64,000 nt of DNA from Candidatus Hydrothermarchaeum profundi. GTDB taxonomy: Archaea; Hydrothermarchaeota; Hydrothermarchaeia; Hydrothermarchaeales; Hydrothermarchaeaceae. Below the pieces are notes generated by a model, which saw only the letters and a program-made list of their open reading frames with translations, was not told the origin of the DNA and made no database searches. Shown here one piece after another: positions 1 to 8,837 of this stretch. The first letter of the stretch is position 1. The number at the start of each line of letters is the position of its first letter. Position numbers and translations under genes: made by a program. Location: NCBI GenBank assembly GCA_002011125.2, contig MTMF02000009.1, forward strand, positions 1,518,989 through 1,582,988. The letters are read 5' to 3'.

Positions 1-1782
1 GGGGTCTTTTATCTATTCGGAAATAATGGGGAAGTAATATTAGATTCCAAATTTCTAAGGGGAGTAAGAAAGACGGCTATATCCTCTGGTGGAGAATACA
101 TAGCATTAAGTACGGAGAATGTTCTATATTATCTTCAGAAAAATGGAACGATCCTGTGGAACACTTCTTTTCCCGTAGCAGTAAACAGTATATCTATAAC
201 TCCAGACGGAGAGTTTGTAGCAGTAGGATCTGGAAACATCATAAAATATTTTGATAAAAATGGAGTAGAACTTTGGAGCTATTCAACATCCAATAATATA
301 AATGACGTTTCAATATCTTCTGATGGGGAATATATAGCCGCAGCCTCTGGCAATGTTATCTATTACTTAAAAGGAGACGGCTCGCTAGACTGGACTTTTT
401 CTGCTTCAAGAGAACTTAAGGATTTATCAATTACGTCTGACGGGGCCTTTATTGCTGCGACAACTGAAAATACCCTATATTACTTAGACAAAGTTGCATC
501 AATATTGTGGAATTATTCTGGAAATAATTTTAAAAGCGTTACAGTTGCTTCGAATGGAGAGATAATCACCGTTACCTCTGGATCAACAATAATTCTTCTG
601 GAGAGAAGAGGCAGAGTAGTTTCTAGATTCCTAGCAGACGGTGAAATAACTCTTACAGATCTTTCTTCACAAGGGGATTATCTTGCTTATGCTTCCAGTA
701 AAAAACTCTATTTTCTAGATAATTCAGGCCGGAGGATAGTCGCGACGCCCAGTATTCCTAGATACCTGTTGCCTACTGGAGTGGCAGTGCTTTTTTTAGC
801 GATTGTAGTTTTACTACTACGCCGTAAGATGAGAGTGGTCGTCAAAAAAGAAGAGAAGCCATTAAAAATCGAGTCTAGTGAGATCAGAATATCTAAGGAA
901 AAAGAGCCATTACGGGAGCAGTACGGCAAAGTTCTTGTAAAAGTTGTTAATTCAAGAACAAAAAAACCTATCCCCCTAGCTTCTGTTTCGCTTAGAGGTC
1001 TTGTAAAAACAACAGATGAGAGAGGAGAAGCGTCCTTTGAGAACGTGCCATTAAGAAGGGCAGAATTATCGGTTGTAAAAGAGGAATATGAAGAACAAAT
1101 TGAAGTATTTGACGTAGATATCGAGAATAAGATAATTATAGAAATGAACCCAAGAAGCATACTTACTCAAGAGCAACGTGAAGAAATCCAGAGGAGTCTA
1201 GAGATTCTTAAAGGTGCATATGAAAAAGTCTCAACGCTAGATACGTGTATACCTAACTATTATGTTTCAGTAGCCGAGAGAATAGCTAAGATAATTGAAA
1301 TGGCAGGTTATTCGCCTGAAGTTTTTAAGTCCGAGAAGGAGCTGGAAAAAGTACTTGATTATTTAATCACAAAATTTCAGGATATATGCAAAGAACTTTC
1401 TGAAATAATGGTAGATTGGAGGAATATAAAGATTTATAAAGCGGCCGGAAAGCTTGATCCTAGTAACTGTATGGCCGGAGAGATTGATGAGAAAGTTGAT
1501 GAACTTCAAGATCTCGACGCATTAGCTGGACGAGGATTACTGTATCTTAGGGAGGAGATACGGAGCGTAGACAAGCTTATTATATCAAAAATGGATGAGC
1601 TTACCGTTCTGCCTGTATCCAGTTTATGGAAGATTTCTAAATATCTGGCTGATGAAGCATCTAGTAAGGAGAAAGTTGAAAAAGCAATTAATGTATTTCT
1701 CTCCAAGATAATATTAAACTATTCCAAAGATATGTTAGAGAATGATTCCATCGTAAAGAGACTAAAATTTGCTCTTGTCTAA
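1..1782 (+). CDS. Membrane beta-propeller protein with CarboxypepD_reg-like domain (5' truncated)
   Basis: The frame is open from the first base of the window, so the gene begins upstream; the ATG at 505 lies inside a propeller repeat and is not the start. Residues 1-245 of the visible 593 are repeats of about 40 aa with aromatic strands (ILWNTS, ELWSYS, ILWNYS) and S-x-x-G-E-Y-I-A turns, as in WD40/PQQ-like propellers. One transmembrane helix follows (about 252-273), then a basic stretch, a carboxypeptidase-regulatory-like beta sandwich (about 310-381) and a helical C-terminal domain of about 210 aa that I do not recognise. The propeller is probably outside the cell and the tail inside. The plan resembles the protein at 46141-47766. 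Its stop overlaps the stop of the convergent gene by 4 nt. A sensing or adhesion role is inference. Confidence 0.8.
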   Translation, partial: GVFYLFGNNGEVILDSKFLRGVRKTAISSGGEYIALSTENVLYYLQKNGTILWNTSFPVAVNSISITPDGEFVAVGSGNIIKYFDKNGVELWSYSTSNNINDVSISSDGEYIAAASGNVIYYLKGDGSLDWTFSASRELKDLSITSDGAFIAATTENTLYYLDKVASILWNYSGNNFKSVTVASNGEIITVTSGSTIILLERRGRVVSRFLADGEITLTDLSSQGDYLAYASSKKLYFLDNSGRRIVATPSIPRYLLPTGVAVLFLAIVVLLLRRKMRVVVKKEEKPLKIESSEIRISKEKEPLREQYGKVLVKVVNSRTKKPIPLASVSLRGLVKTTDERGEASFENVPLRRAELSVVKEEYEEQIEVFDVDIENKIIIEMNPRSILTQEQREEIQRSLEILKGAYEKVSTLDTCIPNYYVSVAERIAKIIEMAGYSPEVFKSEKELEKVLDYLITKFQDICKELSEIMVDWRNIKIYKAAGKLDPSNCMAGEIDEKVDELQDLDALAGRGLLYLREEIRSVDKLIISKMDELTVLPVSSLWKISKYLADEASSKEKVEKAINVFLSKIILNYSKDMLENDSIVKRLKFALV

Positions 1783-3800
1783 TCTTCGCCTATCACGACA
1801 TCGCCTACACTGGATTCTCTATCATCTTGTTTAAATCTCTGCATTCCAATAGTTACTCTGCCCATAAACCAGATAAAAGTTAAAACTAGAATACTGCCAT
1901 ATGCAACAAAAGCAATAAAAATCTGGTTCTTTTGTTTGTAAAGAATTTGTAGTTCTTCGGCAATGCGTTCTGCGTCTTTAATCTCGCCTGCTTTTCTATA
2001 CAGACTTTCCGCCGTTTCATAATTTTTTATTGCGCTTTCGTAGTTAGTAGAAACTTCATCATAGTCAAGAGGATTGTATACGAAATAAAATGTTCCTTCT
2101 CCCTCACCCAACTGGAACATCTTGCTTCTAGCATTACGTAACATTATTTCTGCCTTTTTAACATCTTCAGATGCAGAGAGCAATGATTTCTCATATCTAT
2201 CCTGCAATAACTGTTGTGTCTGTTGGTATTCTCTTGCTTTTTTCTCATCACCTGAATATTTAGAGATCTCTGACATTCTCTTGTATAATAACGATGCCAC
2301 TTTATAGTCGTTCTCCTTGGTTTCTGCGGCTTTATTTTCTAGATCCTTTAAGACATTCTTTGCAAATCTTTGCCAGAGATTTTGAGCTGCCGTCACGCTT
2401 TTACTTGATTGCAATTTGAGTTCTGCGTCCTCTAGGTTCTCATCTCCGATTCTAATCTTATTTAAAGCACTATTAGCTTTAATTATTGCATCAGCAGAAC
2501 TGATTAATTTTCCATCTATAAGATCTTTCTCAGAGTCTTCCAAATAACTTAGAAGTGACCTCACTCCACTATACACCGACATCACCATCGCGATCTTACG
2601 AATCTCGGTTTTCCCCTTAGCATTTTCGAGAAGGAGAAGGGTATCCTGTATTAGAGACTTCTCTTCTTGGCTATCCGTTGAAGCACTCAGATTTTTAAGA
2701 TAGCCGGTGGCTTCTTCAATTCCTGGAAAATAGACAGTGACATACAGATAAATGGTTTGTTTTCCAGCGTAGTGAGTTTTTAGGTCATATGCCCAGTCCT
2801 TATCCCCTAAACTGGCATCTGGAGGTAGAGTAATACTAAAGCTATAATTTTCAGATTCTCCTGGAGCTATATAATCATCGCCCTTAATGCTTACCCATCC
2901 TTTTGGACCATTGGTAAGAGAAAAACTTAATCCTTCTATGGGAGTAAATCCACCAACTTCGCTAATTGTTATTATTCTAGTAGTAGTGTCCTTTCCCGGC
3001 TCGAAGGTGATCTTACCCATATCTATTGTTTTTTTGCTTATTTCCATTTTCGGTTGTGGTATAGTATATTTAGCTTCTTGAGGCTCTGACGTGATCACAC
3101 TTGTAGAAGTAATGATTGGTTTAATATTATATGTGCCGGGTTTTAGTCCCTTTTGGGGTATAGTGACGTTTACTTGGATGTTTTTGGATTCAAGAGGATC
3201 AAGGTCCCCTATCTCCCCAGAGTATAGAAGTTCTGCAGGACCGATCTCCGCTATTAAGACTGTAACGTTAGAAGCGTTTTTATATCCATAATATTCCTCA
3301 ACTGTTAATATTCGTTTAAAGGATGTTCCAGCCTTGACATTCCCCCAGTCTACTTTGTCCCAGATAGCCCTTATTGTTGGATTGGGATAATTTATCTTTA
3401 CTGTGAATCCTGTAATATTCTGAGACGCTAAATTAGTGCCGGTTATTGAGAGAACTCCGCCAGTATATGTCTTTTCTTCCATAGAGGAAGATGCATAGAA
3501 TGTTACTGTTATATCCTTGTGCGTGTTTGGATTAAGATAGAAACTCTTTGAAGCATCATCTATTGAAGCCGTAATACCGTCAATACCATAGAATGATACG
3601 CTTAAATCCTGAATATTCCTACCAGATTCATTGCCTAAAGTTACTCTTATAACCCTCGTTAGCGAGAAAGTTTCCCCCTTTGGTTTATCAAAATCATAGA
3701 TAAGTTCTTTATCTCCTAGAAAACTTGCAGTTGCATCTGCATATGTAAGAGGAACTAACAAAAGGAAACAGAATAATATAATTAAATATTTAATACTCAC
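1779..3800 (-). CDS. Secreted, C-terminally membrane-anchored protein with Ig-like repeats and helical stalk
   Basis: 673 aa. The N-terminus is a signal peptide (KYLIILFCFLLLVPLTYA). Residues about 30-350 look like tandem beta-sandwich domains of the COG1470/NEW3 kind, with phrases such as PGESENYSFSITLP and many N-x-S/T sequons. About 360-620 is highly charged and helical (TPR-like or coiled coil). A transmembrane helix at about 633-653 (IFIAFVAYGSILVLTFIWF) precedes a short acidic cytoplasmic tail. The start is GTG at 3800, with AGGTGA six bases upstream. The start overlaps the end of the upstream gene by 11 nt, so the two form a coupled operon. It is an envelope protein of unknown function. 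Confidence 0.8.
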   Translation of the reverse strand: MSIKYLIILFCFLLLVPLTYADATASFLGDKELIYDFDKPKGETFSLTRVIRVTLGNESGRNIQDLSVSFYGIDGITASIDDASKSFYLNPNTHKDITVTFYASSSMEEKTYTGGVLSITGTNLASQNITGFTVKINYPNPTIRAIWDKVDWGNVKAGTSFKRILTVEEYYGYKNASNVTVLIAEIGPAELLYSGEIGDLDPLESKNIQVNVTIPQKGLKPGTYNIKPIITSTSVITSEPQEAKYTIPQPKMEISKKTIDMGKITFEPGKDTTTRIITISEVGGFTPIEGLSFSLTNGPKGWVSIKGDDYIAPGESENYSFSITLPPDASLGDKDWAYDLKTHYAGKQTIYLYVTVYFPGIEEATGYLKNLSASTDSQEEKSLIQDTLLLLENAKGKTEIRKIAMVMSVYSGVRSLLSYLEDSEKDLIDGKLISSADAIIKANSALNKIRIGDENLEDAELKLQSSKSVTAAQNLWQRFAKNVLKDLENKAAETKENDYKVASLLYKRMSEISKYSGDEKKAREYQQTQQLLQDRYEKSLLSASEDVKKAEIMLRNARSKMFQLGEGEGTFYFVYNPLDYDEVSTNYESAIKNYETAESLYRKAGEIKDAERIAEELQILYKQKNQIFIAFVAYGSILVLTFIWFMGRVTIGMQRFKQDDRESSVGDVVIGED

Positions 3801-4767
3801 TTTGGCTCACCTGCACTAACTCGTTTCCCAAAAAATATTCGTAAGTATCTATGTTCCAAGCTTTTATTCTGTGTATGAGGTAAACTGTTATTATAATTAG
3901 TAGAACTGTAATTCCACTAAAATATGCTGCGAGTCCTAGAAGTAAAGAATTCATTTGTTTTTGGATTTCTACAAGATTATTCTCAACTTTTATTTCCCAC
4001 GCTGATTCATGGTGGTACTGGTAGTACTTTTGAGCTTCCTTGAATTTTATCAAAGCACTTCTGGCTAGAACATATGATTTTATTTTTGAAGGAAAATATC
4101 CCCCCCGGAGTTCTGCTGATTTTTTATATTCGTCTTCAGCCTGCGAAAAAAATGAATTTGCTCTTTGCATGTCTTTATCGTAGCTTTCTTTTAAACTCGC
4201 CTCTTTTATCCGATAATTTGTTGCCTCAAGGGTTTCGCCAGCGGCCTCAAAAGCTCGCGATGCAGCTCCGTAAAAATCTATCTTCCTTTTTGTAATTTCT
4301 GTTGTGTCAGCTTCCCTTACGTAGGCATTAGCTTGTGTAGTCAATAAGTCGATAACCGCCTGCCTAGCAGAGTTTACAAGGTCTGTGGCTTCAACTCCAA
4401 AGTTCTCTTTCATTCTATCCAATTGAGGGATATCCTCAGTTGCCAGCTTTTTGGCTATCTCAACTGATTTTTCATGATCCTCCGAGATATCCGACACTGC
4501 AAGGAGATACGCTTTATCAAACTGTAAAAGGAATTCTTTAGTGGCTATTGAAAAATCGGCCACATACTTAGGGCAGGAGGCTCTTTCTCGTCCGTATAAT
4601 ATTAGGAGAATGTCTTGTTTCACATCATTTAAAAGAGGATATTTATCGAATGCTTGAGATTGAAGTCCCCTTATCTCGGAAGCTAAGCTGGTACAACTCT
4701 GTGCAAAAACAGGGGATGAGAAAGTTAGAATTATCAATGCAAATGTTAAGATTATTTTAAGGTCCAT
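3790..4767 (-). CDS. Membrane-anchored helical ectodomain protein (TPR-like)
   Basis: 325 aa from the ATG at 4767. A longer frame to 4821 would overlap the divergent tubulin start and would put 18 residues before the signal peptide. The 4767 start has AGGTG three bases upstream and begins directly with MDLKIILTFALIILTF, a good signal peptide ending near VFAQ. The middle (about 25-270) is almost all helical and charged, with repeated A-x-x-x-F/Y-x-x-A patterns (GAASRAFEAAGE, KYYQYHHESAW) like TPR hairpins. A transmembrane helix at about 278-302 is followed by a tail of about 25 aa. It is the first gene of a two-gene operon with the Ig-like protein and diverges from the tubulin operon, with only 52 nt between the starts. 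Function unknown. Confidence 0.75.
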   Translation of the reverse strand: MDLKIILTFALIILTFSSPVFAQSCTSLASEIRGLQSQAFDKYPLLNDVKQDILLILYGRERASCPKYVADFSIATKEFLLQFDKAYLLAVSDISEDHEKSVEIAKKLATEDIPQLDRMKENFGVEATDLVNSARQAVIDLLTTQANAYVREADTTEITKRKIDFYGAASRAFEAAGETLEATNYRIKEASLKESYDKDMQRANSFFSQAEDEYKKSAELRGGYFPSKIKSYVLARSALIKFKEAQKYYQYHHESAWEIKVENNLVEIQKQMNSLLLGLAAYFSGITVLLIIITVYLIHRIKAWNIDTYEYFLGNELVQVSQSEY

Positions 4768-4780
4768 ACACCTGAAAGCA

Positions 4781-4803
4781 TTTATATTTAACGTCTTTAT
4801 ATA
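4781..4803. promoter_or_regulatory. Divergent promoter region between the surface-protein operon and the tubulin operon
   Basis: The 52 nt between the divergent starts 4767 and 4820 contain two TATA-like stretches on the plus strand, TTTATATTTA at 4781-4790 and TTTATATA at 4796-4803. The first would place a plus-strand start of transcription near 4808-4812 and the second almost at the ATG (leaderless). There is only a weak GTGG upstream of 4820. The shared short region suggests that the two operons are co-regulated; this is inference. Confidence 0.45.
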
Positions 4804-4819
4804 ATTTAAGTGGAATTTC

Positions 4820-6046
4820 ATGCCTTATGCATTTATAGGTGTAGGACAATGCGGCGGAGGTATAGTTGATGCCGCCTTTTATGACAAAAATATGTTTAAA
4901 GTAGCGGTTCCGATAGCTATAAACTCCGCCACAATGGATCTTCAAACGTTGAAACACATAGGGAGAGAATATTGGGTAGGGATGTCTAGGGATAGGGGTT
5001 TCATTGACGGTACTATAGATGGATTTGAACACTTTGTAAGTGGAGGATATGGTAAGAATAGAGCTAAAGCTTATGAGGACGCCTTAAAATATGAGGATAC
5101 AATAAGGGATATAATAATTGAGCGCGCAAGAGTAAAGGGTGCAACAGATGATAGAGGAGTAGGCATCCCTGTCGCCTTTATAGTTTTTGGGCTTGGGGGA
5201 GGTACTGGCAGTGGCGCCTCTCCCGTTATAGCTAAGGTCTTACGGGAGATGGGGATCCCGGTAATTGCTGTTGTGGTTTTGCCGGCTAGTCATGAGGGTG
5301 GGCTTACTGCTAAGAATGCAGTAGAAAGTCTTAATATTCTAGTAGAACATGTAGATTCAGTAGTTCTGGTTGACAATCAAAAATTGGCCTATGCTGAGAG
5401 CGCAGAAACCCTTTATCAACGTTACAATGAATATGTAGCGAGAAGCCTAAGGGATATTGTGATAGGTACTGCGCTTGAGAGGATAAATCCTGCAGATTTT
5501 GAGGGATATGCGCCTGTGATTGATTTGAAGGATATGATTGCCGCTACCTCTTTTACATTAGGTAAGAAGACTAAGCCTGGATTTGCGTGCCTTGGGAGAG
5601 CTAGTGAAAAGACTAGAGACCTACTGCACTATATACTACCAATAGGAGGCTATAAAGAAATAGACGTTATAAGTCTGCTTTATAGAGCTTTTATGAAGCT
5701 AACTGTCGAGGACGTTAGAGCTGAAGACGCTGAAAAGAATCTCGTGTTATTAAGATTACCACCTGTCTATATAACTAAATCTGGAAAGATTAATACTAGC
5801 ATGGCTAAGCAGGTTATGGAGGAGAGGTCCAGATTAGGGGAGACGCACTTCGGCGTTTCTCTCACTAAGAGGAATCTCGCTACGGCTACTGTACTTTTAA
5901 CTTATAGGCCAAACCAGATTGCAAGACTAAAGGTGCTCAGCCAGCTCGCAGGGCAATATACAGATATTTCTCTTAAAGTACTTGAGGAATATGAAAAGGA
6001 TTTTGCTCTCGAAGAGTTACCTGAGGAGATAGAGGTAGAAGAATGA
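4820..6046 (+). CDS. cetZ: CetZ-like tubulin-superfamily GTPase
   Basis: 408 aa. The N-terminal nucleotide-binding loop GVGQCGGG (residues 7-14) is of the CetZ/tubulin type (GxGQ-GG) rather than the FtsZ GVGGAGG type. INSATMDL (34-41) matches the CetZ strand that follows. The tubulin signature GLGGGTGSG is at 124-132, and the T7-loop D-x-x-D is present as IDLKD (234-238), so GTP hydrolysis on polymerisation looks possible. VLPASHEGG (about 153-161) also follows CetZ. The C-terminus is short and acidic (EELPEEIEVEE), as in tail peptides that bind partners. It is the first gene of a three-gene operon; its last four bases overlap the start of the membrane protein. CetZ proteins of haloarchaea act in cell shape and motility. 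A canonical FtsZ role is less likely. Confidence 0.82.
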   Translation: MPYAFIGVGQCGGGIVDAAFYDKNMFKVAVPIAINSATMDLQTLKHIGREYWVGMSRDRGFIDGTIDGFEHFVSGGYGKNRAKAYEDALKYEDTIRDIIIERARVKGATDDRGVGIPVAFIVFGLGGGTGSGASPVIAKVLREMGIPVIAVVVLPASHEGGLTAKNAVESLNILVEHVDSVVLVDNQKLAYAESAETLYQRYNEYVARSLRDIVIGTALERINPADFEGYAPVIDLKDMIAATSFTLGKKTKPGFACLGRASEKTRDLLHYILPIGGYKEIDVISLLYRAFMKLTVEDVRAEDAEKNLVLLRLPPVYITKSGKINTSMAKQVMEERSRLGETHFGVSLTKRNLATATVLLTYRPNQIARLKVLSQLAGQYTDISLKVLEEYEKDFALEELPEEIEVEE

Positions 6047-7482
6047 ATGAATATGCTCTCGCTACTCTGACTATAATAATTATACTTGGAGCGGGATTTG
6101 GACTTTTGATTTATTTTGGTATTGATGTTGTGACATATTTTGGTGTAGGGCTTGTTGTCGCCTCTATCGTAGGAAGTGTTATCTATACATGGTGGAGAAG
6201 TCAGAGCGATAAGACTATTGAGCGTCTTAAATTGGAGATTTTGACAAAAATTAAAAGGGAATTGGAAGACGTTGAGAGCCTTGTTGAAGAGGCGTCAAAA
6301 ATCACAGATATGGCTCCTATCTCTACGAAATTAACACTCTTGAGAGAGAACCTAGTAAAGCAGAAATTTTTCGATAACCATTTCAATATCAATAAGACTA
6401 TAAGGAAATATACCCTTACTTTTATTGAGCAAGAGGCCAGAAAAGTAGAGCAGAGGCTTAGAAGCTTAGAAGCCCTAGCAGCGGGAGCATGTAGACCTGA
6501 GCTTGAGAAATTTATAAAGGACCTGCAATCCAAGCTTGAAAAACTTTTAGATGCGGGGTATGGTATTGAAGAAGATATTAGCGAGTTTAATATAATTGCT
6601 GCACAGCCATCGCAGAGTTTGAGAGAGATGATAGAGAAGAAAATGAGGCTCTCTGAAAAATTCGAGGAGGTTCTTGATAAATGCGTTGAAGAGGCGGTTT
6701 CAGTTGCTACGGCTAGCAGGAGATTCGGCGACACCTCGACCTTAGAGTCCAGCGTGCTAGAGGTAAAGAAGATGAAGAGCGACTTTGATAACGCAGTTTT
6801 TTTACTGGTTAAGGCGAGGAATGAGTTGAAGGATATTTTGAGAGATGTCTTCTCTAGGCAACATAGTAAGCTTATCTCACATGTTAAAGAGATTTATAGC
6901 CTCTTAAGCGCCAATCATGTAGGCGAGAAATATAAGACGGTCATTAGAGATATAAGAGACGAACTTTTATCTCTTAATGACCCAGGAAGAATTCAAGAGT
7001 TAAGGGAACTTGAAAGAGAATTCAAGAACAAAACAGCATACGTTGTAACCGATCTTTTCGAAGAAATGGTTGAGTTAGAAAAAAACATAAATATCTATAA
7101 ACCACATGAGAAAGTTTGGACTTCTGACAAGAAGATCCCCGAACTAGTTAACAAAGTAAACCCTTCAGACGAACTTGAAGTATTCGCAAAGAACGCTAGA
7201 AAAGCTCTCAAGTGCCTTGTGAATCAACTTGAGAAAGATGTCGGTTTTCTTAAAATAATAGAGAACTACGCTAAAGTGGAACCTATTATTAGTAGGAAAT
7301 TAAATGAGAGGGGAGTACTAACTATTTCAGATTTGAATGTAAAGTATGCAGACAAGTTTATGTTACTATACAGTCTGAAAAATGAGGATACAACCTATGA
7401 AGAGGATCCCCCCACATTAACTCTTAAATCTAAGGTGGCAGCAGAGTTGAAGAATAAGCTATTAAAGAAGAAAAGGTCTTAG
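6043..7482 (+). CDS. Membrane-anchored coiled-coil protein between two tubulin homologues
   Basis: 479 aa. The start ATG overlaps the stop of the CetZ-like gene (ATGA), so translation is probably coupled. Two hydrophobic helices at about 4-26 (ALATLTIIIILGAGFGLLIY) and 28-50 form a hairpin that would leave the rest in the cytoplasm. Residues about 55-470 are helical and charged, with long heptad-like stretches (KLEILTKIKRELEDVESL). No enzymatic motif is visible and I do not recognise the family. Position and topology fit a membrane tether or adaptor for the flanking tubulins, comparable in role (not sequence) to bacterial FtsZ anchors. This function is inference. Confidence 0.75.
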   Translation: MNEYALATLTIIIILGAGFGLLIYFGIDVVTYFGVGLVVASIVGSVIYTWWRSQSDKTIERLKLEILTKIKRELEDVESLVEEASKITDMAPISTKLTLLRENLVKQKFFDNHFNINKTIRKYTLTFIEQEARKVEQRLRSLEALAAGACRPELEKFIKDLQSKLEKLLDAGYGIEEDISEFNIIAAQPSQSLREMIEKKMRLSEKFEEVLDKCVEEAVSVATASRRFGDTSTLESSVLEVKKMKSDFDNAVFLLVKARNELKDILRDVFSRQHSKLISHVKEIYSLLSANHVGEKYKTVIRDIRDELLSLNDPGRIQELRELEREFKNKTAYVVTDLFEEMVELEKNINIYKPHEKVWTSDKKIPELVNKVNPSDELEVFAKNARKALKCLVNQLEKDVGFLKIIENYAKVEPIISRKLNERGVLTISDLNVKYADKFMLLYSLKNEDTTYEEDPPTLTLKSKVAAELKNKLLKKKRS

Positions 7483-7484
7483 TC

Positions 7485-8837
7485 ATGGAGGATTATTCTA
7501 CTAGGTGGAGCATTATAGCCTCCGGCGAAGGAGCCAACCGCATCTCTTTCTTATATTACGCGAAATATAGAAATCCCGCAATTGAGGATAGGGTTCTTCT
7601 CCTTAATACAACTACGGCCGATGTAAAACCTGAAAAAACTTTTGAATATATGTTAACTAAGAACCCCCGATTTCAGGAAATCTATGAAAAGATAAAGCGA
7701 GAAAAGATATGTATTTTTGGTAAATCGCCTTCTGGAGCCGGAAATAACTGGAAAGTAGGTGAAAACGAAGCAAGAGACGATTTCGACACTATAAGAAGAT
7801 ACATAGAGAACCTTAAGCTTGGAGGGCGGGATGTAATATTCGGGATATCTACTCTAGGCGGCGGAACTGGTAATGGATCTCTACCCTTTATAATATATCA
7901 ACTGAAATATGGGAGTGAGGCTTTAATACTTGGGCAGAACAGTTTTATAGCTTTAGGGATAATGCCCTATGATTTCGAAGCTCCTCAGAGATTTTTTAAT
8001 ACCATCTGTGGCATCGCTCGGCTTTTAAAGTATGGTCCGAGGGGAGTGCAGAATGCGGATATGTTATTATTAGCTGATAACACTCAAATTGAGAGACTTC
8101 TCGGAATCACAGAGTCTTTCAAGGAGGAGAGATACTACAGAATAAATGAAGAGATAATTAAAGCCATAAACATGATGATAGCTCCTGGAGGTCCTGGGGC
8201 AAGGTCAACTATTGATGTAGCTGATTATTATCAGCTTCCAAGCAATATAGGAACTTATCATTTTACTCCTTGTATGAGTCTTGGAAATGATCCGGAAGTA
8301 TTTGGAATAGAGACCGCTTTGGAAACGGCTATGGATCGCCCTATGGCCCCGGTAGACCCAAAAACAGCTACTATGGCATATGTAATTGTTGTGGCACCTA
8401 AAAAATATGTTGAAAATGGCACCTTTACTCAGGAAGGGTTAGAGGATATAACGAGAGATTGGGCAGTCAAAAACTTAGCTGGGCGTAGAGGAGGTATTTT
8501 GAGATATTCCAGCCTGGTTGCCAGCAGAGAGATAGAAACCTTGGATGTTATGATATTACTAGGAGGCTTCAGTCTGAAGGACATATTCTCTAAAGCTCTT
8601 CAGAAATATTACGATTTTAAGGATAGCTTGGAAATAGAAGGAAAAGAAGTAGAGCTTGCTGACGAAAACAACCCAAGAATCAAGGTGAGAATAAATATCG
8701 ATGATATAGAAACTATAGAATCTCGGATAAAGGAGTATATTAGGCTTACAGAAGATAGAATTAAAAGAGCTAGAGAAGAAGAAATTGATTTAAAAGAAAA
8801 GCTCTTAGAGTGGGGATTTGGAAAATCCACTCCCTAA
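7485..8837 (+). CDS. Divergent second tubulin/FtsZ-superfamily GTPase
   Basis: 450 aa, starting three bases after the previous stop. The N-terminal loop is altered (SGEGANR, 13-19), with LLNTTTADV (39-47) as the T3-like segment. The signature loop is GGGTGNG (125-131), and the T7 loop keeps D-x-x-D (IDVAD, 243-247). The GTP-binding and catalytic aspartate elements are therefore both present, although the overall sequence is far from CetZ, FtsZ or the first gene of the operon. An insertion of about 40 aa (about 60-100) separates the T3-like and T4 elements. The C-terminal 60 residues are a charged helix (about 395-450). It could co-polymerise with the CetZ-like protein or form its own filament; neither can be judged from sequence alone. 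Confidence 0.75.
   Translation: MEDYSTRWSIIASGEGANRISFLYYAKYRNPAIEDRVLLLNTTTADVKPEKTFEYMLTKNPRFQEIYEKIKREKICIFGKSPSGAGNNWKVGENEARDDFDTIRRYIENLKLGGRDVIFGISTLGGGTGNGSLPFIIYQLKYGSEALILGQNSFIALGIMPYDFEAPQRFFNTICGIARLLKYGPRGVQNADMLLLADNTQIERLLGITESFKEERYYRINEEIIKAINMMIAPGGPGARSTIDVADYYQLPSNIGTYHFTPCMSLGNDPEVFGIETALETAMDRPMAPVDPKTATMAYVIVVAPKKYVENGTFTQEGLEDITRDWAVKNLAGRRGGILRYSSLVASREIETLDVMILLGGFSLKDIFSKALQKYYDFKDSLEIEGKEVELADENNPRIKVRINIDDIETIESRIKEYIRLTEDRIKRAREEEIDLKEKLLEWGFGKSTP

Follow-up and report, generated by a model that had tools for sequence, protein, structure and literature searches.

We identify, in a 64,000-nucleotide stretch of the genome of Candidatus Hydrothermarchaeum profundi (contig MTMF02000009.1; hereafter the window), an island of six genes, conserved in several archaeal groups, that probably encodes a scaffold not described before, by which filaments inside the cell would be linked to its exterior. 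At its centre lie TubA and TubB, two tubulin-superfamily proteins, and CC, the helical protein encoded between them; three surface proteins, S343, S673 and P904, complete the set. We think it reasonably probable that the six genes constitute one trans-envelope cytoskeletal module, in which guanosine triphosphate (GTP)-dependent TubA/TubB filaments are tethered by CC and coupled to the cell surface. The observed basis of this reading is the gene content, linkage and co-occurrence of the six families, the tubulin fold of TubB, the GTPase motifs and the predicted topology of the proteins.

Conservation of the gene island

The trio lies on the plus strand of the window. TubA (positions 4820..6046, 408 amino acids) overlaps CC (6043..7482, 479 amino acids) by ATGA, and TubB (7485..8837, 450 amino acids) starts 2 bases past the CC stop codon. 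An earlier note on this DNA, made from the sequence alone, had these three open reading frames and the ATGA coupling right to the base, together with the motifs GVGQCGGG, GLGGGTGSG (T4) and VIDLKD (T7 IDLKD) of TubA and SGEGANR (T1), GGGTGNG (T4) and IDVAD (T7) of TubB; TubB also has GAGNNWKVGE as its T3 motif. The note described a three-part layout. The trio held up, but the conserved genes number six rather than three.

We detected TubB in 15 of the 20 genomes of the order and 15 of the 23 of the phylum. TubA, CC and TubB are adjacent in every Hydrothermarchaeota genome whose contig spans the site (14/14); the contig of genome G019 starts inside the island. Five genomes of the order have no TubB; CC was missing from them too, and none had a TubA above paralogue level. 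Because the trio is adjacent in all spanning genomes and jointly absent from these five, its association is not due to chance. On contigs that are long enough, S343 and S673 lie on the opposite strand, divergent from TubA, with P904 beyond them; a few Hydrothermarchaeota loci have no recognised copy of one of these three genes.

Relatives elsewhere were sought by scanning GTDB contigs with the TubB alignment, and were found in Altiarchaeota, one Micrarchaeon, ANME-2 Methanosarcinales and many Halobacteria. A gene-neighbourhood search, which the earlier note had proposed as a check, showed that the trio stays linked throughout the order and does so in Halobacteria too. In a minority of Halobacteria, a single colinear operon contains all six families, arranged as TubC - x - TubA - x - CC - TubB - P904 - S343 - S673, where x denotes membrane or helical proteins. 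Strong matches to TubB, CC and full-length S673 fell in exactly the same 15 of 146 sampled Halobacteria genomes, and weak partial matches in other genomes (TubB, 1; CC, 1; S673, 4) leave this co-occurrence unaffected. The Fisher p-value for TubB with CC was 9e-21, or 2e-18 with weak matches counted as mismatches; since the genomes are related, both values overstate independence. Cultivated haloarchaea with orthologues include Halorubrum, Natrinema, Halorussus, Halobaculum, Haloarchaeobius and Natronomonas, and the module is therefore open to genetic deletion and imaging.

The ANME-2 genomes tested all hold TubA, TubB and CC, with the tubulins and CC at separate loci. TubA is divergent from S343 in two of them (L146 and L148), with S673 next in one, as in the window. 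Of three Altiarchaeota genomes searched for TubA, TubB and CC, two have the complete trio. In the Micrarchaeon, CC–TubB and a P904-like gene are linked with TubA nearby, and TubA itself bears a C-terminal beta-sandwich-like extension that matches P904. We rejected the TubB neighbours in Altiarchaeota and ANME-2 as parts of the system, these being genes for a class II tRNA synthetase, enolase, CdhC and a glycosyltransferase; ThiC, encoded beside CC in ANME-2, was rejected on the same ground.

The haloarchaeal operon encodes a third tubulin-superfamily protein, TubC (L099:806-2593 and orthologues in Halobacteria), in which the T4 loop is degenerate (VTKGTGCG) but the T7 D-x-x-D is retained, and which carries an N-terminal CxxC (MxxKCKIC). 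The operon is also present in Haloquadratum walsbyi J07HQW1 (L105), a relative of the square haloarchaeon.

Placement of TubA and TubB in the tubulin superfamily

TubA scored 86.5 bits against the Pfam Tubulin family PF00091 (cut-off 33), which was matched by 13 of 13 TubA orthologues. TubB of the window fell slightly below this cut-off at 32.4 bits; a haloarchaeal TubB orthologue reached 46.0 bits. The predicted TubB model (predicted local distance difference test (pLDDT) 76.8, predicted template modelling score (pTM) 0.84, from an alignment of 14 sequences) matched FtsZ, OdinTubulin, CetZ and tubulin structures with a best E-value of 1.7e-17. The tubulin architecture of TubB therefore stands, in agreement with the description of the 7485-8837 protein as a divergent tubulin relative. 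PHROGs gave a weak match to PhuZ alone for TubA.

Both proteins keep the T4 GGGTGxG loop and the T7 acidic pair (D235 and D238 in TubA; D244 and D247 in TubB). This D-x-x-D pair, which the earlier note had seen in both proteins along with the signature loop, is invariant among 13 TubA and 14 TubB orthologues of the order. With 61-85% identity across the order, TubA is better conserved than any other protein of the set; second TubA copies in Altiarchaeota have LGSGTGAG as their T4 loop. Stop-codon recoding, considered for one TubB in which in-frame TAG codons had been reported, was dropped since open reading frame calling gives an intact frame of 446 amino acids.

In a tree of 75 sequences, including 22 TubA, 20 TubB and a single eukaryotic tubulin (alpha-tubulin), TubA and TubB each formed one clade with a Shimodaira–Hasegawa-like approximate likelihood ratio test (SH-aLRT) value of 100, apart from CetZ, FtsZ and alpha-tubulin. 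The deep branching order was without support, and alpha-tubulin sat on a long branch. The CetZ_C domain (PF21011) was detected in none of the 13 TubA orthologues at E-values up to 1, and is present in two genes at 948-953 kb of the source genome, which are its own CetZs. Against Haloferax volcanii CetZ1, one of these two true CetZs scored 360 bits versus 79 for TubA. The FtsZ equivalog TIGR00065 of NCBIfam (cut-off 295.2 bits) was not reached by TubA (85.9 bits) or TubB (35.4 bits); for Tubulin_2 (PF13809), TubA scored 18 bits against a cut-off of 27 and TubB was not listed.

The earlier note had called TubA CetZ-like. CetZ is indeed the nearest match: CetZ1 (PDB 4b46), with the CetZ of 4b45, is the nearest solved relative of both families by profile. 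We nevertheless ruled out TubA as a CetZ, given the missing CetZ_C domain and a clade of its own apart from 4b46 and 4b45, and the term is for these reasons a nearest-hit label only. We conclude that TubA and TubB are, judged by sequence, two tubulin families distinct from both FtsZ and CetZ.

A predicted membrane rod and three surface proteins

CC has two hydrophobic segments by hydropathy, at residues 1-19 and 29-47, in line with the two N-terminal helices of the earlier note. Beyond them it is helical to the C-terminus, with long and short helices alternating and a small C-terminal alpha/beta element (AlphaFold2 (AF2) model, pLDDT 89.8, pTM 0.66). The alternation of long and short helices in the model suggests a rod, and hydropathy, the AF2 model and occurrence in the same genomes as TubB together describe CC as a predicted membrane-anchored helical rod. 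Sequence searches with CC returned generic coiled-coil noise. Homology to EzrA or spectrin was rejected on finding neither a structural nor a sequence match, and EzrA is kept as an analogy only. Haloarchaeal CC proteins carry an extra C-terminal CarboxypepD_reg-like domain, as does P904.

S343 (3790..4821, minus strand; its likely start is an internal ATG near 4767) and S673 (1779..3800, minus strand) each have a signal peptide, a helical ectodomain, a single C-terminal membrane helix and a short cytosolic tail. S673 combines immunoglobulin (Ig)/NEW3-like domains with an S343-like helical stalk, and S343 is homologous to its C-terminal half (hhalign 99.3%). Nearly all members of both families have a signal-like N-terminus and one C-terminal membrane helix. 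The motif W-x-[RN]-D...LGNEL is conserved in the S343 tail, and a short conserved motif recurs in the tails of both families, exemplified by SWERDTYDCYLGNELVGA and RWVRDSEALAEGDVVLG in one genome, that could dock to a cytosolic partner. That surface proteins with helical stalks are encoded divergently from the trio was already in the earlier note; the two minus-strand genes are real and conserved, but they are better read as parts of the system than as mere neighbours.

P904 is a 904-amino-acid protein with a signal sequence, an ectodomain of Ig-like and beta-propeller domains and one membrane helix, followed in the cytosol by a CarboxypepD_reg-like domain and a helical tail; in Hydrothermarchaeota, four to six Lys/Arg residues follow the membrane helix. 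Its gene starts before the window, which contains the 3′ two-thirds (1..1782, plus strand; full gene, L038:4057-6771). S343 and TubA are separated by a gap of about 52 bases (4768..4819), a putative short divergent promoter region with TATA-like stretches at 4780 (atttatattt) and 4795 (ctttatataat), which may serve as a shared promoter for both genes.

Proposed mechanism and alternatives

We propose that TubA and TubB would bind GTP and form cytoplasmic filaments on the inner face of the membrane, either as one mixed polymer or as two interacting ones. CC, with its two N-terminal helices in the membrane, would project a helical rod into the cytoplasm and tether or space the filaments at the membrane. 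The Ig, beta-propeller and helical-stalk domains of P904, S673 and S343 would lie outside the cell, with the short tails of S343 and S673 and the beta-sandwich-like domain and helices of P904 inside, and through these surface proteins the filaments would be connected with the S-layer or with other structures at the surface. Filament assembly might then position or shape part of the envelope, or surface contact might organise the filaments. Polymerisation, a physical complex, the direction of coupling and the biological role are what we infer; a role in positioning or shaping the envelope, which the earlier note had raised, is consistent with the sequence data.

Several observations weigh against a single module of this kind. 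The genes of ANME-2 and Altiarchaeota are mostly unlinked and some surface components were not found there, which means that a complete set is not required; among the three Altiarchaeota genomes searched, a single one gave no CC match. CC matched no solved structure in the PDB at E-values up to 0.001, EzrA and spectrin included, long rods being hard for the method. The T7 motif of TubB reads T-I-D, without the N of the FtsZ N-x-D, and the membrane sidedness of the proteins is based on simple hydropathy and charge counts.

The same gene set, with surface proteins encoded alongside filament genes, would also be expected if TubA/TubB filaments acted mainly as a track for delivery or assembly, guiding the surface proteins to their sites of insertion or assembly much as FtsZ guides wall synthesis, and bore no load between filament and surface. 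We regard this as unlikely, though the strongest of the alternatives, as the island has no conserved gene for secretion, glycosylation or pilus assembly and the common conserved tails of S343 and S673 suggest direct docking. The pairing of tubulin-superfamily GTPases with a membrane-anchored helical partner recalls FtsZ with EzrA (PMC4243239) and would fit an accessory division system, in which TubA and TubB work alongside FtsZ1/FtsZ2 where the cell divides and CC anchors them to the membrane. The source genome, however, holds two other genes that group as FtsZ, plus CetZs, and the module is missing from about 90% of sampled Halobacteria as well as from the five related Hydrothermarchaeota; it is therefore dispensable for division, and we consider a division role improbable.

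In the tubulin superfamily the T7 catalytic aspartates act only across the longitudinal contact between subunits. It is for this reason just as improbable that TubA and TubB are non-polymerising signalling GTPases under the control of beta-propeller and Ig receptors that sense the cell's surroundings: the topology of P904 is receptor-like and the T1 loop of TubB is divergent, but these aspartates are invariant in both proteins, and the high conservation of TubA is that expected of a lattice protein.

Returning to the trans-envelope module, we tentatively suggest, with rather less confidence than in the module itself, that it is a prokaryotic cytoskeleton of a new kind: a two-tubulin polymer that a membrane rod and receptor-like proteins would physically join to Ig, beta-propeller and stalk domains outside the cell, an archaeal counterpart of eukaryotic linkages between cytoskeleton and surface. 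It might be old enough to be common to Hydrothermarchaeota, Altiarchaeota, Methanosarcinia and Halobacteria, or might have spread between them.

Relation to known systems

This candidate machine, with defined parts and a predicted order across the membrane, bears on how prokaryotes couple an internal cytoskeleton to structures beyond the membrane. Tubulin-like control of cell shape in archaea is, to our knowledge, known mainly from CetZ1 in one species. The two added families also bear on the diversification of tubulins in archaea. Like CetZ, TubA is an archaeal tubulin-superfamily protein not needed for division, from which it differs in the domain, score and clade given above.

We found no description of the six-gene module in open-licence PMC papers. 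The earlier note knew of no described system with the trio, and among these papers no characterised one came to light, the nearest being a remark on Halo.Tub. Santana-Molina et al. 2023 (PMC9871819) reported Halo.Tub and CetZ-like sequences in Halobacteria, Methanosarcinia and Altiarchaeota, remarked briefly on quasi-tandem copies and coiled-coil neighbours, and called the genomic context unknown and unrelated. The likeness in taxa, quasi-tandem tubulins and coiled-coil neighbours is close, and their Halo.Tub and CetZ-like groups probably include TubA, TubB or TubC; two co-conserved families, a multigene system and surface proteins are, in contrast, not described there. Brown and Duggin 2023 (PMC9856176) put 'non-canonical TSF' proteins, which occur patchily, to one side.

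The FtsZl1/vWA predicted membrane-remodelling system of Makarova and Koonin 2010 (PMC2875224) is likewise a predicted multicomponent system that combines a divergent tubulin-superfamily protein with membrane proteins. Unlike it, our six conserved families include no vWA, P-loop GTPase, kinase or OmpA protein, and its Tubulin_2 domain does not reach the cut-off in TubA and is absent from the TubB matches. The analogy with EzrA and FtsZ (PMC4243239) lies in a tubulin homologue with a membrane-anchored, rod-like helical cytosolic partner, but CC differs in its two membrane segments, and its structural comparison with the PDB returned neither EzrA nor spectrin. BtubA/BtubB and alpha/beta-tubulin also pair two different tubulin-superfamily proteins that are encoded or used together, but TubA and TubB show no T7 loops that alternate between catalytic and non-catalytic, and the nodes that would place the two families relative to tubulins were unsupported in a tree whose one eukaryotic tubulin was alpha-tubulin.

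Other tubulin-superfamily genes

In Hydrothermarchaeota (L003, L024, L025, L028, L031 and L034), a true CetZ gene is followed by a divergent tubulin-superfamily paralogue of about 317-337 amino acids that forms its own clade. At L053:8673-13783 of the source genome, CetZ and this paralogue are followed by genes for a membrane protein, a glycosyltransferase and a second CetZ. Four Altiarchaeota genomes encode an FtsZ–FtsZ fusion, a single protein of 816-834 amino acids with two FtsZ-like domains (L164:2579-5077, L165:2835-5285, L166:2956-5460 and L167:829-3309). Each domain has a GGGTGTG loop and an NLDxAD T7 motif, and a Pro/Gln-rich linker joins the two in L164. A third FtsZ gene adjoins the fusion gene.

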